DNA of 64,000 nucleotides from Zhihengliuella sp. (GTDB lineage Bacteria > Actinomycetota > Actinomycetes > Actinomycetales > Micrococcaceae): assembly GCF_031178195.1 (NCBI RefSeq), contig NZ_JAPSJL010000007.1, positions 1 through 64,000 on the forward strand, written 5' to 3'. Positions 2,279-28,525 of the stretch are shown here, one piece after another. The notes beneath the pieces are model-generated. The model had not been told where the DNA came from and ran no database searches. It saw only the letters and a list, made by a program, of their open reading frames with translations. Position numbers and translations under genes: made by a program. The first letter of the stretch is position 1. Every line of letters begins with the position of its first letter.

Positions 2279-2587
2279 TTAAAGCTTGATTTCGATGTTG
2301 ACGTCAGCCGGAAGGTCGAGACGCATGAGCGAGTCGACAGCCTTCGGAGTCGGATCGACGATGTCGATCAGGCGCTTGTGGGTGCGCATCTCGAAGTGCT
2401 CGCGGCTGTCCTTGTACTTGTGGGGCGAACGGATGACGCAGTACACGTTCTTCTCCGTCGGCAGCGGCACGGGGCCGACTACGGTTGCGCCTGCGCGCGT
2501 GACCGTCTCTACGATCTTCCGGGCAGAAACGTCAATGACCTCGTGGTCATACGACTTCAGCCGGATGCGGATTTTTTGTCCCGCCAT
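2279..2587 (-). CDS. rpsJ: 30S ribosomal protein S10
   Basis: S10 (102 aa) is a 30S head protein and the NusE subunit of antitermination complexes. The start is taken as the ATG at 2587, giving [19 protein letters not shown]; an upstream in-frame ATG at 2614 would add nine residues not present in the family. Conserved [10 protein letters not shown] and [20 protein letters not shown] segments are present. It is the first gene of the S10 operon, with a long upstream leader. Confidence 0.97.
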
Positions 2588-23916: not shown

Positions 23917-24614
23917 AGGATGCGGCGGTCCACGGCCCACCGGGTCAGCTCGTGCCGGTTGGACAGCTGCAGCTTGCGGAGCACCGAGGAGACATGGGTC
24001 TCGACGGTCTTGACGGAGATGAAGAGGTCCTTGGCGACCTCCTTGTAGCTGTAGCCGCGGGCGATGAGCCGCATGACCTCGAGCTCCCGCGCCGAGAGCA
24101 GATCCAGGTCCTCGTCCGCGCTGACGGCCGCGCCGGTGCCGAAGGCGTCCAGCACGAATCCGGCCAGCCGGGGCGAGAAGACCGCGTCCCCTCCGGCGAC
24201 CCGGACCACGGCGTCGGAGATCTCCCTCCCGGAGGCCGACTTGGTGATGTAGCCGCGGGCACCCGCGCGGATGACGGTGACCACGTCCTCGGCCGCGTCG
24301 GAGACGCTGAGGGCCAGGAAACGGGTCCCGGCGAGCTGCCCCGCGCAGAGGGCCAGCACCTCGGCGCCGCCTCCCCCGCGGCCGCCGGGCAGGTGGACGT
24401 CCAGGAGCACGACCTCCGGACGCAGCTGCTGCACCGCGGCGGCGGCCTGCTCCACCGTGGCGGCCTCGCCGACGACCCGGAGGCGGCCATCGAGCTCGGC
24501 CTTCAAGCCGGCCCGGAAGACCGCGTGGTCGTCCACGACCACCACGCGGATCGGCTCCCCCGCGCCCGGGGAGCCCGGCTGCGGGGCGGGGGCGGCGTCG
24601 TCGTGCTGGTTCAT
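23913..24614 (-). CDS. LuxR/NarL-family response regulator
   Basis: This 233-aa regulator has an N-terminal receiver (about residues 22-145) with acidic pair DD28-29, phosphoacceptor Asp72 ([10 protein letters not shown]), a conserved Thr/Ser (ALSVSD) and Lys (YITKSASG). The C-terminal LuxR-type helix-turn-helix is [36 protein letters not shown]. An extra Gly-rich loop ([11 protein letters not shown]) follows the phosphorylation site. Its ATG overlaps the kinase stop by 4 nt, so the two are a coupled pair. It probably controls the divergent PspC operon (inference). Confidence 0.93.
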
Positions 24615-26080
24615 GCCTGTTCCTCCTGGTGCGGGCGCTGCGCCCGATGCTCGTGCTCGGCGGGGTCGTGCTGGCGGCCGGGCCCGGAGCCCTCGCCGCC
24701 GTTGCCGTTGCGTCCGTCGTCGCCGCTCAGGGGCAGGCAGAGCTGGACCTCCGTGCCGTCGGGGCCGCTGCGGATGCGGGCGGTGCCGCCGTGGCGGTGC
24801 ATGCGCCCGATGATGGACTCGCGCACGCCGAGCCGGTCCTCGGCGATGGTCTCGACGGCGAAGCCCTCGCCGCGGTCGCGGACGAACACCGCGACCTCCC
24901 GCGGGCCGCTCTCCACGTAGACCGAGACGCTGCCGCCGGCGTGCTTCGCCGCGTTGATCATGGCCTCGCGGGCCGCCTGGACCAGGGCCTCCTGACCGGG
25001 GACGCCCTCCACCCGGCCGACGGTCACGACGTCGAACCGGACCGGATAGCGCGCCTCCAACTCGGCGGCGTCGTGCCGGATCGCATCCCCGACGTCGGTC
25101 CTCTCCGGCGGCGCGTCCCGGTAGAGCCACTGCCGCAGCTCCCGCTCCTGGGCACGGGCGAGCCGGACCACGTGGGCCTCGTCGCCGGCGCGCTGCTGGA
25201 TCAGGGCGAGGGTCTGCAGGACGGAGTCGTGCAGGTGGGCCGCGATGTCGGCGCGCTCGGCGGCGCGGATGCGGCTCGCGCGCTCGGCCTGGTAGTCCCG
25301 CCAGAAACGCAGCCCCCAGGGCAGGAGCACCACCACGACGCCGGCGAGGACCACCAGCGACACCAGCGCACCGGCCCAGATCGCCTCCACCCGGAGGCTC
25401 TGGGCGAGCAGCAGCATCAGGCCGACGATGACGAGGGCGAGCCCTCCGGCCAGCCGGGCGCCGAGGATCCAGCGCCGTTTCCGCCGCGGGGCGTCCGGGT
25501 CCTCCGGGCCGGACCCGCCGTCGCCGCGACTCGGCTCCGTCCCGGCCTCCGCGTTCAGGCGGGACCGGCCGGCGTCGATCTGCGTCCAGACGAGGGCGGC
25601 GCCGACGGCGGTCACCACGATCGGCCAGACGAAGCCCCACGCCAGGTCGAGGCCCAGCAGCTGCGCGACCAGCAGCAGGCCGGCCGCCAGCAGGGCGACG
25701 CCGATCAGCACGGTCCGCAGCGCCTGACCGGTGCCCGGGTCGCCGAGGCCGCCCGGGAGGCCGCGCATCGCCTCGGCGAGGGTGCGGCGGCGGGATGAGT
25801 CGAGCGTCTCGGAGGCCCGGGCCGCGTCGGTGCTGCTGGGCAGCAGGATCCAGAGCCAGGCGTAGAGGAAGAGGCCGGCGCCTCCGGCGAAGGCCGCCAG
25901 GACCATCAGCAGGCGGACCACCCACGGCTCGGTCCCCAGATGGGCGGCGAGCCCGGAGCAGACTCCCGCGAGGACGGCGGGCTCGCTGCGCAGCAGCGGG
26001 GCGCGCCCGCCGCCCGGGCGCTGGGCCGCGGCGTCGTCGGGTCCCGGCGGGCTGCCGGTGGCGGTGGCGGTGGCGGTCAT
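24611..26080 (-). CDS. PspC-domain sensor histidine kinase
   Basis: This 489-aa membrane kinase begins with a PspC domain (about residues 30-82: AGVCSGLAAHLGTEPWVVRLLMV then FLYAWLWILLP). Further membrane segments lie at about 123-141, 148-166, 208-228 and 236-256. A HisKA_3 dimerisation domain follows, with His284 in AAHLHDSVLQTL, and then an HATPase domain (REAMINAAKHAGG; VRDRGEGFAVE). It forms an operon with the LuxR regulator and diverges from the PspC operon. Such kinases sense envelope stress in other actinobacteria; the signal here is unknown. Confidence 0.92.
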   Translation of the reverse strand: MTATATATGSPPGPDDAAAQRPGGGRAPLLRSEPAVLAGVCSGLAAHLGTEPWVVRLLMVLAAFAGGAGLFLYAWLWILLPSSTDAARASETLDSSRRRTLAEAMRGLPGGLGDPGTGQALRTVLIGVALLAAGLLLVAQLLGLDLAWGFVWPIVVTAVGAALVWTQIDAGRSRLNAEAGTEPSRGDGGSGPEDPDAPRRKRRWILGARLAGGLALVIVGLMLLLAQSLRVEAIWAGALVSLVVLAGVVVVLLPWGLRFWRDYQAERASRIRAAERADIAAHLHDSVLQTLALIQQRAGDEAHVVRLARAQERELRQWLYRDAPPERTDVGDAIRHDAAELEARYPVRFDVVTVGRVEGVPGQEALVQAAREAMINAAKHAGGSVSVYVESGPREVAVFVRDRGEGFAVETIAEDRLGVRESIIGRMHRHGGTARIRSGPDGTEVQLCLPLSGDDGRNGNGGEGSGPGRQHDPAEHEHRAQRPHQEEQA

Positions 26081-26107
26081 GGGACTACTAAAGCACGCGG
26101 AACCGCC

Positions 26108-26160
26108 GCTCAGGGCCCGGCCCCGGGGTACCCCGGGGCCGGTTCAGGGTCCGTTCAGGG
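26108..26160 (+). promoter_or_regulatory. Repeated TCAGGG boxes and a 26-bp palindrome before the PspC operon
   Basis: In the spacer between the kinase and the first PspC gene, GCTCAGGG occurs at 26108-26115 and GTTCAGGG at 26142-26149 and 26153-26160 (the last two 11 bp apart, one helical turn). Between the first two lies a perfect 26-bp palindrome (26117-26142) centred on GGTACC. These are candidate operator sites for the neighbouring response regulator. Confidence 0.5.
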
Positions 26161-26206
26161 CCTCCCCTCATGGTGCGCCGCGGCGCCGAGGAGAAGGATG
26201 GATGAC

Positions 26207-27625
26207 ATGAACCCCACCCCTGAGAACTCCATCTTCCGCTGGCTGCGGTCGCTGGGCGTCGCGCGCAGCTCCGACCGGTGGATCGGCGGCGTCGCCGGCG
26301 GCCTGGCCGACCGGACCCGGCTCGATCCCATTCTCGTCCGCGGGCTCACCGCGCTGGTGGTGATCTTCACGGGCTTCGGGCTGCTGCTCTACGGCGCGGC
26401 GTGGGCCCTGCTGCCCGGCCCGGACGGGCGCATCCACGCCCAGGAGGTCGCCCGCGGCAACTGGACCACCGGCTTCACCGGCGCCCTCGTCGTCACGCTG
26501 ATCGGCCTCTTCGGCTGGTTCCGCCCCTGGGACGCGTTCGACGGCGGGTTCGACGGCGGCGACGTGATCCTGCTGCTCATCGTCGGCCTCGTGGCCTGGT
26601 TCCTCATCGCCCGGACCCGCCGGAACGACGGCGTCCCGGGCCCCGCGGAGCGCGGCCCGACGGGCACGACGGCGTTCGCCGCCCCCGACGCCCCGTCCGA
26701 CGCCTCCGCCTCCGCCGCGGCGGATCCCTCCGCCGCTGCCTGGCCCGGCGGCACTGGGACGGCCCCCGCGGAGTCGGCCTACACCACGCCGACATACACC
26801 CCGCCGACGTACACGGCTCCGACCTACACCGCGGCGGCCGGCACCGGGACAGCCGGCACCACGACGTCGTCCACGGCGCCGCCCCGCCCGCCCAAGCCCC
26901 CGCGGCCACTGAAGCCGATGTACCCCACCCTCGGCACCGGCGGCACACTGATCTGGCTGGGGCTGGCCGTCCTCGCCGGCGGAGCCGTGTTCCTGCTCGA
27001 CGTCCTCGACTTCGGGATCCTGCCCGAGGGCGCGGCGGCGCTGGCGATCGCGCTGGCCGTGGCCCTGGGAGTCCTGTCCCTCGGCGTGGTCACGAGCGCG
27101 CTCGCCCAGCGCAGCGGCGGCGCCCTGACCGGCTGGACGGTGCTGACCCTCATCGCCGCGCTGCTCTTCGGCGGTCTGGCCGGGCTCCGCGACCACGGTC
27201 CGGACCGGTGGGGCCAGGACTGGAACCGGCCCTTCTCCATCGACTCCGAGACCGGTGAGCGCGGATACGTGTTCTCCGACCACACGCTAGACATGACCGG
27301 CTACGCGGGCACGATCACCGACGACGTGACGGTCCCGCTCGCGCTGGCCTTCAGCGACACCACCATCCGCGTCCCGGACAGCATCCCGGTTTACGTGGAC
27401 GCCAACAGCGCCTTCGCGGACCTGACCATCACCCGCAGCGGCGGCGCCGGATCCGACGGCGGCGAACAGGAGCACGTGCAGGAGTTCGAGGGCCTCAGCG
27501 GCCCGAACGACCTGCTCATCACCGGCACGACCGATGGCCCCGCCCTGCGCCTGGTGCTCAACGGCGCCTTCAACGAGGTCACCATCGACGTGGTGGAGAC
27601 GAAGACCGAGGAGGTCACCCCGTGA
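26207..27625 (+). CDS. PspC-domain membrane protein with LiaF-like C-terminal region
   Basis: This 472-aa protein starts with a PspC domain (RWIGGVAGGLADRTRLDPILVRG, then a hydrophobic helix to about residue 70) and two more membrane segments (about 85-105, 125-145). A Pro/Thr/Tyr-rich linker with YTxPT repeats (about residues 185-215) leads to a second group of four hydrophobic segments. The last ~130 residues are a soluble beta-rich region resembling the C-terminal domain of LiaF/DUF2154-type cell-wall stress proteins (moderate similarity, from memory). ATG 26207 or ATG 26198 could be the start; both have GGAGAAGG upstream. It is the first gene of a three-gene operon. Confidence 0.85.
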   Translation: MNPTPENSIFRWLRSLGVARSSDRWIGGVAGGLADRTRLDPILVRGLTALVVIFTGFGLLLYGAAWALLPGPDGRIHAQEVARGNWTTGFTGALVVTLIGLFGWFRPWDAFDGGFDGGDVILLLIVGLVAWFLIARTRRNDGVPGPAERGPTGTTAFAAPDAPSDASASAAADPSAAAWPGGTGTAPAESAYTTPTYTPPTYTAPTYTAAAGTGTAGTTTSSTAPPRPPKPPRPLKPMYPTLGTGGTLIWLGLAVLAGGAVFLLDVLDFGILPEGAAALAIALAVALGVLSLGVVTSALAQRSGGALTGWTVLTLIAALLFGGLAGLRDHGPDRWGQDWNRPFSIDSETGERGYVFSDHTLDMTGYAGTITDDVTVPLALAFSDTTIRVPDSIPVYVDANSAFADLTITRSGGAGSDGGEQEHVQEFEGLSGPNDLLITGTTDGPALRLVLNGAFNEVTIDVVETKTEEVTP

Positions 27626-28275
27626 ACAACCCCGACATCCCCGAGGACGGCCGCCGGCTCGAAGCGGCCGACGAGGAACGTACCGCCGACGAGTACGCCG
27701 CCGGCGACCGGCCCACGCAGCCCATCGGCGACCAGCCGACGCGGCCCCTCCCGCCGAGGACCGACCAGCCGACCGAGCGGATCGACGCGACGGAACGGAT
27801 CGACACCACCGAGCGGATCGACGCGACGGGACGGACCGACACCACCGAGCGAATCGACGCGACGGAATCGACGGATCAGCCCGAGGCCGCCGACCCGGAG
27901 CGTGCCGAACGGAAAGCCGGGCCCACGGCGCCCCACGGCGGCGACGAGCCGGCCTGGTCCCGGACCGCGGCCCCGGCACCCCCGGCTCCGACTCCGACTC
28001 CGGCCCCCGCCCAGCGGCCGATCAGGCGCGGCGTCCCGCTGGGCACGCTGGTCTTCGGGCTCGCGTCGCTCGTCGTCGCGATCGCCCTCCTGACCAACGC
28101 GTTCCTCGACGTGGCGGTGAACCCGGCCATCGTCGTCGTCCTCATCCTGATCGGCGCGGGCGCCATCATGGTGATCGGCGGCATCGCCGCCACCCGCCGG
28201 CGCCGCGACGTCGACGGCCCCGGTTCCGATCCCATCCACAGCACTGGCACCCCCGACCCCCATATGAGAGGCTGA
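27622..28275 (+). CDS. Membrane protein with N-terminal hexapeptide repeats
   Basis: This 217-aa protein is of unknown function. Its GTG start overlaps the preceding stop by 4 nt (GTGA), so it is coupled to the PspC protein. Residues about 50-77 are near-perfect repeats of ERIDAT, ERIDTT, GRTDTT, made of polar and acidic residues; a Pro/Ala stretch follows. Two hydrophobic helices near the C-terminus (GTLVFGLASLVVAIALLTNAF and IVVVLILIGAGAIMVIGGIAA) end in an Arg-rich stop-transfer. The topology suggests a long cytoplasmic disordered arm. Confidence 0.8.
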   Translation: MNNPDIPEDGRRLEAADEERTADEYAAGDRPTQPIGDQPTRPLPPRTDQPTERIDATERIDTTERIDATGRTDTTERIDATESTDQPEAADPERAERKAGPTAPHGGDEPAWSRTAAPAPPAPTPTPAPAQRPIRRGVPLGTLVFGLASLVVAIALLTNAFLDVAVNPAIVVVLILIGAGAIMVIGGIAATRRRRDVDGPGSDPIHSTGTPDPHMRG

Positions 28276-28279
28276 CGCC

Positions 28280-28525
28280 ATGGACAAGTTCTTCGACATG
28301 CTCCGCTCGATCAAGTTCCGCCGCAGCCGACGCCGCGTGGTCGCGGGCATCGCCGGCGGCGTCGCCGACAGCACCGGCTGGGACGTCACGCTCGTCCGCA
28401 TCGGCGTCCTGCTGTCCTTCCTGCTGCCGGTCGTCGGCCTCGGCGCGTACGTCGTCGCCTGGCTGCTGATCCCCTACGAGGACGGGACGATCGCCCTCGA
28501 GAAGCTCGTCAGCGGTACGCGCTGA
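28280..28525 (+). CDS. Small PspC-domain protein
   Basis: At 81 aa this is little more than one PspC domain: a basic N-terminus (FRRSRRRVVAGIAGGVADSTGWDVTLVRIGVLL) and a membrane helix (FLLPVVGLGAYVVAWLLIPYED). It is the third gene of the PspC operon, 4 nt after the previous stop, with GAGAGG upstream, and is followed by a terminator. PspC proteins guard membrane integrity in proteobacteria; the role here is inferred by homology only. Confidence 0.9.
   Translation: MDKFFDMLRSIKFRRSRRRVVAGIAGGVADSTGWDVTLVRIGVLLSFLLPVVGLGAYVVAWLLIPYEDGTIALEKLVSGTR

Follow-up and report, generated by a model that had tools for sequence, protein, structure and literature searches.

The window analysed here is a stretch of 64,000 nucleotides of Zhihengliuella sp. 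(contig NZ_JAPSJL010000007.1, positions 1 to 64,000; G+C content of the window 70.6%, genome size 3.15 Mb), in which five genes form a divergent cluster rich in PspC domains. The genes of a sensor histidine kinase and of a LuxR/NarL-type response regulator lie on the minus strand and diverge from a three-gene operon on the plus strand, whose first product, an EsrI-like membrane protein, joins PspC to a LiaF-like beta domain. We read the cluster as an envelope-stress system of the EsrISR type, made of three components and two accessory membrane proteins, with a probability of about 0.8. Its features are collected in Table 1. The regulator start codon (ATG at 24614) overlaps the kinase stop codon, and the second gene of the operon starts 4 bp inside the end of the first. 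The genes and domains agree with the first-pass annotation of this DNA, which had described a PspC kinase and a LuxR regulator diverging from an operon of two PspC proteins and a repeat-bearing membrane protein; its span of 24611-28525 places these genes correctly and leaves the regulator out.

Table 1. Features of the divergent PspC cluster (positions in the window).
Feature	Position	Strand	Remarks
LuxR/NarL-type response regulator (EsrR-like), 233 aa	23913-24614	-	Response_reg and GerE over cut-off
Sensor histidine kinase (EsrS-like), 489 aa	24611-26080	-	PspC 29-82, four more hydrophobic segments, HLHD box 282-285, HATPase_c 364-452
Divergent gap, 126 bp, common to both operons	26081-26206	.	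Between the kinase and EsrI-like gene starts
Direct repeat TCAGGG-N5-TCAGGG, predicted regulator binding site	26144-26160	+	Comparative sequence evidence
EsrI-like membrane protein, 472 aa	26207-27625	+	PspC 20-70, two helices, Pro/Thr/Ala-rich linker, three helices, LiaF-like toastrack beta domain ~342-463
Membrane protein, 217 aa	27622-28275	+	Repeat-rich hydrophilic N-terminal part, two conserved C-terminal transmembrane helices
Small stand-alone PspC protein, 81 aa	28280-28525	+	PspC over cut-off

The kinase and its co-inheritance with the EsrI-like protein

PspC scores above its curated Pfam cut-off of 25 in the kinase (66 bits), the EsrI-like protein (56 bits) and the small 28280-28525 protein (60 bits), and a whole-genome search at E ≤ 0.001 returned no PspC protein beyond these three. 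With three such domains in one cluster, a Psp system proper has to be considered, in which the PspC proteins would draw PspA to a damaged membrane, the kinase part being secondary. Recruitment of this kind is suggested in the relevant passages of PMC11237479, and the genome has a single PspA match (G000:C13:59872-60564), on another contig than the cluster. The PspC domain as an envelope-stress module is indeed what the cluster shares with the classical PspFABC system; however, Pfam finds a PspA domain in none of the five cluster proteins, and we consider this explanation quite improbable.

HATPase_c is over its cut-off in the kinase (32 bits), while HisKA_3 is sub-threshold (17 bits vs a cut-off of 24). 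Residues H282, H284 and D285 of the H-L-H-D box are invariant in the kinase alignment, together with N376, D402, G404 and G406. When 27 of 41 kinases (the set of relatives, window's included) were scanned, PspC was found in 27/27, HATPase_c in 26/27 and HisKA_3 in 15/27 at E ≤ 0.01. The kinase was also compared with two named families, LiaS, to which it scores 20.3 bits vs an NCBIfam cut-off of 450, with PspC in place of the LiaS arrangement, and MacS (NF047322), to which it scores 94.4 bits vs a cut-off of 300; both assignments were rejected. As for the regulator, its Pfam scan began at 24575, that is at a shortened start.

Conservation was surveyed in 59 genomes. The kinase is present in 42 of them, own included, at E ≤ 1e-20, and it lies divergent to the EsrI-like protein in 41 of the 42, namely the own genome, 39 fetched loci and G049, the last judged by coordinates alone. 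In G047 (locus L056) the first part of the kinase is divergent to the putative inhibitor but truncated where the contig stops; the best-matching kinase sits on another contig. Overall, 40 neighbourhoods were fetched: the two genes are divergent in 39/39 of those where both were found at first pass, and in 40/40 when profiles are used. The search with the EsrI-like protein matched 50/59 genomes at E ≤ 0.001 (own included), some of them in PspC only; in the other 17 genomes the match is confined to the PspC part (8) or is missing (9). A first scan of genome contigs with the EsrI-like protein alone confirmed no relative. The divergent gap measures 124-127 bp in 9/39 relative loci, with open reading frame starts chosen automatically.

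A second set consists of 80 named loci, the best 80 of 589 picked by kinase alignment and hence a biased sample; the nearest of them by kinase are mostly Arthrobacter and neighbours, and the titles include Arthrobacter, Curtobacterium, Leucobacter, Cellulomonas, Nocardioides, Kribbella, Streptomyces and Actinomyces. By own profiles, PspC was found in the kinase in 79/80 of these loci, a divergent PspC protein within 1.5 kb in 76, and the beta domain in 71; a regulator-like reading frame follows the kinase in 79/80. Two of the four remaining loci stop at a contig end, and the other two have a PspC reading frame 2.5 and 2.9 kb off. The kinase and the divergent PspC protein are inherited together. 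The neighbourhood survey proposed in the first-pass annotation thus finds the cluster co-conserved in its divergent layout, and the idea of a one-off arrangement was rejected on the same counts.

The LiaF-like beta domain of the EsrI-like protein

Structure prediction and fold and profile searches agree with the earlier proposal that the EsrI-like protein has PspC at one end and a LiaF-like beta domain at the other. PF09922 (LiaF-like_C) matches the protein with 16.4 bits (E = 0.0085), under the Pfam cut-off of 29, and is matched at E ≤ 0.01 by 22/39 family members, window protein included (best E = 3.5e-06); the search of the genome with this family gave no match at E ≤ 0.001. In an AlphaFold model of the whole protein (39 sequences; mean predicted local distance difference test score, pLDDT, 74; predicted template modelling score, pTM, 0.48) the linker is of low confidence and the beta domain becomes confident from about residue 353, while the domain modelled alone (34 sequences) reaches a mean pLDDT of 82 and a pTM of 0.74.

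All comparisons with known structures lead to 4QRK, one of two structures named as toastrack in the passages of PMC11237479 on this fold, and the only toastrack structure that turned up. A profile of the whole family finds it best in the PDB (E = 8.7e-06, among 18 matches at E ≤ 1), the runner-up (E = 0.0013) lying outside the beta domain, and a profile of the beta domain finds it as the sole match at E ≤ 0.1 (E = 1.3e-07). In two Foldseek searches it is again the sole match under E 0.001 (5.4e-04 and 6.2e-04), with a loose overlay (root-mean-square deviation, rmsd, 4.3 and 9.0; TM-score by query 0.16 and 0.43). VIA-align with the whole protein gives a list dominated by helical hairpins (Z up to 7.6), with 4QRK at rank 10 (Z 6.5), and we therefore relied on the search with the domain alone, in which 4QRK has a modest Z of 6.7 (rmsd 3.0 over 97 residues) and no other of 110 chains reaches Z ≥ 2. 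These results support a predicted toastrack-like beta fold, similar to that of 4QRK, at the C-terminal end of the EsrI-like protein, as the first-pass annotation had anticipated when it named structure prediction as a check.

A LiaF-like domain next to a kinase of the HisKA_3/HATPase kind also recalls LiaFSR and VraTSR of the Firmicutes, which have the same three-component logic. The cluster could accordingly be a LiaFSR system with added PspC, in which the beta domain inhibits and PspC is a mere membrane anchor; the logic of inhibitor, kinase and regulator would be identical. However, LiaS has HAMP, LiaF has DUF2157/DUF2154 parts and the genes form one lia operon, according to the passages of PMC11237479 devoted to them, whereas here the genes diverge and the kinase carries PspC instead, with no HAMP match at E ≤ 1 (Pfam) and a score far under the LiaS cut-off. 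Furthermore, PspC is present in 39/39 homologues of the EsrI-like protein whereas the beta domain is weaker and more variable, and the published description of such proteins gives Toastrack only 'in some cases' (PMC11237479). This makes a LiaFSR system with added PspC unlikely, and we retain the EsrISR-type reading.

On which side of the membrane the beta domain lies was approached by counting charges in the 39 family members, which is weak evidence. Around the last three helices, net positive charge is found at the linker's end in 37 members and in the loop between helices 2 and 3 in 39, and net negative charge in the loop between helices 1 and 2 in 25 and in the segment after the third helix in 29; the beta domain itself is net negative in 39. 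By the positive-inside rule this pattern places the linker in the cytosol and the beta domain outside. It suggests a position outside the membrane for the LiaF-like domain, by itself at a little short of even odds. A beta domain outside requires that PspC and the next two helices end inside, with PspC as a hairpin or re-entrant element; for PspC of E. coli, one-pass and two-pass forms are both predicted in the part of PMC3068692 that treats its topology. The kinase has four hydrophobic segments after PspC by our own count and would need the same PspC arrangement for its catalytic part to be inside. The N-terminal half of the EsrI-like protein adds little: 18 members have a net positive linker start and 6 a negative one, and for the loop that follows PspC, expected inside, the count is 18 net negative and 8 positive. 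On account of this loop, the odds of the outside-sensor circuit described below are slightly lowered.

A conserved direct repeat in the divergent gap

The 126-bp gap holds TCAGGGTCCGTTCAGGG at 26144-26160, a direct repeat of the form TCAGGG-N5-TCAGGG. It was found by eye and by word counting in the gaps of the 40 fetched loci, so that discovery and count share the same data there; the independent test was made on the 80 named loci, which gave 75 gaps after one duplicate of the 40 was dropped. The exact repeat occurs in the gap in 31/40 and 45/75 loci, and with up to one mismatch in 34/40 and 63/75. Length-matched random stretches drawn from these loci contained the exact repeat in 0/714 and 0/1,394 cases (0 of 2,108 together), and the form with up to one mismatch in 4/714 and 0/1,394. 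Control patterns are likewise rare in the gaps of 40 and 76 loci, respectively: 0 and 0 for the reversed word, 0 and 1 for spacing N4, 3 and 5 for N6, 0 and 0 for N8. Finally, TCAGGG starts are 11 bp apart in 35 pairs of the first set vs at most 6 at any other distance below 45, and in 51 vs at most 9 of the second. The evidence is comparative, a match with up to one mismatch not being significant in the window alone (0.50 expected). In the named Streptomyces loci CCAGGG often takes the place of the second half, and those of Nocardioides have one half-site left.

At a fixed distance downstream of the repeat, up to about 26173, follows CCCC-N-AT-purine-G, likely a degenerate -10 region. This element sits where a -10 element would lie, and the repeat therefore occupies the -35 region, which is the place of a class II activator. 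A longer form that includes part of this element, TCAGGG-N5-TCAGGG-N5-CC-N2-AT, was found in 142/295 family genomes (144 sites, one site in 140 of the 142 genomes), vs 0 for the reversed pattern. By hand count it was found in 1/83 genomes (G101, genus g28) of the 13 genera in which no tested member has the kinase, vs 141/212 of the others, with one or two members per genus tested for the kinase.

We conclude that the repeat is likely the binding site of the LuxR-type regulator, through which the system is probably switched on. Alternatively, the repeat could be promoter, or the site of another regulator, with the LuxR-type protein acting elsewhere. The repeat adjoins the conserved CCCC-N-AT element, so that constraint on a core promoter might preserve it in part; four genera with a kinase in the tested member (g4, g20, g21 and g25, by hand reading) show the longer form in none of their genomes; and exact double sites in the 59 genomes number 97 vs 20 for the reversed control (hand count), 36 of the 97 lying in divergent gaps and about 61 outside. 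On the other hand, a pair of identical half-sites spaced by one helical turn is generally typical of a dimeric regulator and not of a core promoter, and the near restriction of the longer form to genera with the kinase speaks against an unrelated function, so that another role for the repeat appears unlikely. A literature search returned no description of the repeat site, for which Kleine 2017, on EsrISR of C. glutamicum, may give a motif; sites of EsrR exist at the nlpC promoter, as stated in part of PMC9960051.

Among the sites outside the gap, we opened 20 regions of relatives (26 of the sites) and one of the own genome. The reading frames behind them are mixed, with YccF (L100), PAP2 (L091) and rhomboid (L089) by Pfam, an ABC-transporter ATPase (L099) and a response regulator (L105) as judged by inspection, and one frame (L101) with no Pfam family; many other opened sites have no clear gene. 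No regulon is therefore claimed.

Several of these places are described here individually. The second exact site of the own genome has three TCAGGG half-sites 11 bp apart (G000:C14:290981-291008; L086:3982-4009); it points toward two tRNA-Asn genes, a duplicated pair, on the other strand, and is 94 bp before a holin-3_6-like membrane protein gene of opposite sense. In G011 (L100, ~2579-2660), one of the two genomes with an extra longer site, the full promoter form stands just before the YccF membrane protein gene. In G050 (L092, ~2484-2511, minus strand) three half-sites precede a PspC gene that stands alone, at a distance of 4.7 kb from the cluster's divergent gap. G060, the other genome with an extra site, has two letter-identical longer sites 986 bp apart near a contig end (G060:C67:67239-68252; L187), possibly a local duplication or an assembly effect. 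In G013, TCAGGGCGTTCTCAGGG or a one-letter variant occurs at five dispersed places outside the cluster and is perhaps part of a repeated element. At the other end of the gap, the stretch 26081-26097 directly before the kinase start reads CTACTAAAGCACG in the window and CCACTAAAGCACG or CCATCCAAGCACG in relatives; it may belong to a leaderless kinase promoter.

Accessory proteins, proposed circuit and related systems

The two further proteins of the operon are less uniform. The 27622-28275 gene has a repeat of 36-bp period and 3.0 copies (27758-27867), which falls in the hydrophilic N-terminal tail of the protein; in 20 relatives the two helices are conserved and the tail is not kept, some relatives carrying extra N-terminal residues from the automatic start choice. 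The protein was also considered as a LiaI equivalent: LiaI-LiaF-like_TM1 and LiaF-TM match 2/21 family members each (best E 0.0064 and 0.011), and unrelated membrane families match equally well. In 22 family-level loci, a single-sequence search found a relative of this protein in 21, the small PspC gene in 19 and a phosphofructokinase gene in 19, some loci ending early. In the window, too, a phosphofructokinase-like reading frame follows the operon, and an aminotransferase-like one lies behind the regulator, both named from sequence only.

The analysis shows the genes with their domains, a beta fold by prediction, joint inheritance and a conserved repeat in the DNA; inhibition, stimulus, phosphotransfer, DNA binding and the direction of regulation are inferred. 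At rest, the EsrI-like protein would keep the PspC kinase off through contacts of the membrane parts, for which a PspC-PspC contact is the natural candidate. Envelope damage, which in C. glutamicum is caused by antibiotics of the lipid II cycle, would be read by the PspC membrane parts, by the LiaF-like beta domain or by both. The inhibitor would then release the kinase, which would phosphorylate the LuxR-type regulator, and the phosphorylated regulator would bind TCAGGG-N5-TCAGGG at the -35 position of the promoter that drives the inhibitor operon. The system would in this way raise its own inhibitor along with the two small membrane proteins, giving negative feedback.

A number of points weigh against this reading. 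The cluster of this organism is known as DNA sequence alone, and the label 'EsrISR-like' comes from matching architecture and the published description, not from C. glutamicum sequences. Relatives differ in linker, repeat tail and accessory genes. The exact repeat is missing in 9/40 and 30/75 gaps, and in 6 and 12 when one mismatch is allowed; to this is added the lack of the longer form in the four kinase-bearing genera mentioned above. It is, moreover, solely from position and co-occurrence that we infer binding of the repeat by the regulator.

A further version of the circuit can also be drawn, in which the toastrack domain would stand outside by way of the three helices after a cytosolic linker and be able to act as the actual envelope sensor, a PspC-PspC relay would work at the membrane, and the regulator would act mainly on its own inhibitor promoter through the repeat, in a near-closed feedback loop. 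Taken as a whole, this version is tentative and rather doubtful.

In C. glutamicum, EsrI (cg0706) reportedly has a PspC domain and is divergently transcribed, and EsrR is said to be of the LuxR type. The EsrISR system of this organism has been studied experimentally, as parts of three reports describe (PMC9239133, PMC6975037, PMC9960051): EsrI is described as an inhibitor of the EsrSR two-component system, and bacitracin and vancomycin activate the regulon, of which esrI is a member (PMC6975037); EsrISR is active only during cell wall stress (PMC9960051); and, in the pertinent lines of PMC3353115, CgtS7/cg0707 is a PspC-HisKA_3-HATPase_c kinase with 5 predicted transmembrane segments. Both systems have a PspC-bearing kinase of the HisKA_3 type and a separate inhibitor or inhibitor-like protein; here, however, the latter ends in a LiaF-like beta domain, and its gene is the first of an operon that encodes two further membrane proteins, EsrI being compared by description only.

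The core of the cluster has the identical arrangement of a PspA-free Lia-like system of Actinobacteria (exemplars AIJ13865.1 and AIJ13866.1), with an N-terminal PspC kinase that has a LiaI-LiaF-type transmembrane part, a REC-HTH regulator, and a PspC protein on the opposite strand that shares the promoter region and has a Toastrack in some cases (Ravi 2024; PMC11237479 section 26). The fusion of PspC and LiaF, which the first-pass annotation took for a merging of systems separate elsewhere, is thus already in print, with or without the Toastrack, and the kind of system it considered incompletely described has been described both there and as EsrISR; the fusion was accordingly dropped as a new finding. 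The cluster differs in two respects: Toastrack is predicted intracellular in the relevant portion of that paper whereas the charge pattern here suggests the outside, and the passages describing the system name no regulator site and no downstream two-helix or small PspC genes.

The circuit type, which responds to envelope damage, is thus well conserved and already described; what is added here is a conserved DNA site and a hint of an outward beta domain. The 17-bp repeat marks the promoter of the system in many Micrococcales and in some Streptomyces and Kitasatospora, and reduces the predicted regulator site to a 17-bp string open to gel shift. An outside toastrack, if true, would contradict the published view of an intracellular platform. 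The model of a sub-membrane cytosolic Toastrack would then need correction for this group, and the domain of the EsrI-like protein would become a candidate sensor of cell-wall precursors or antibiotics.

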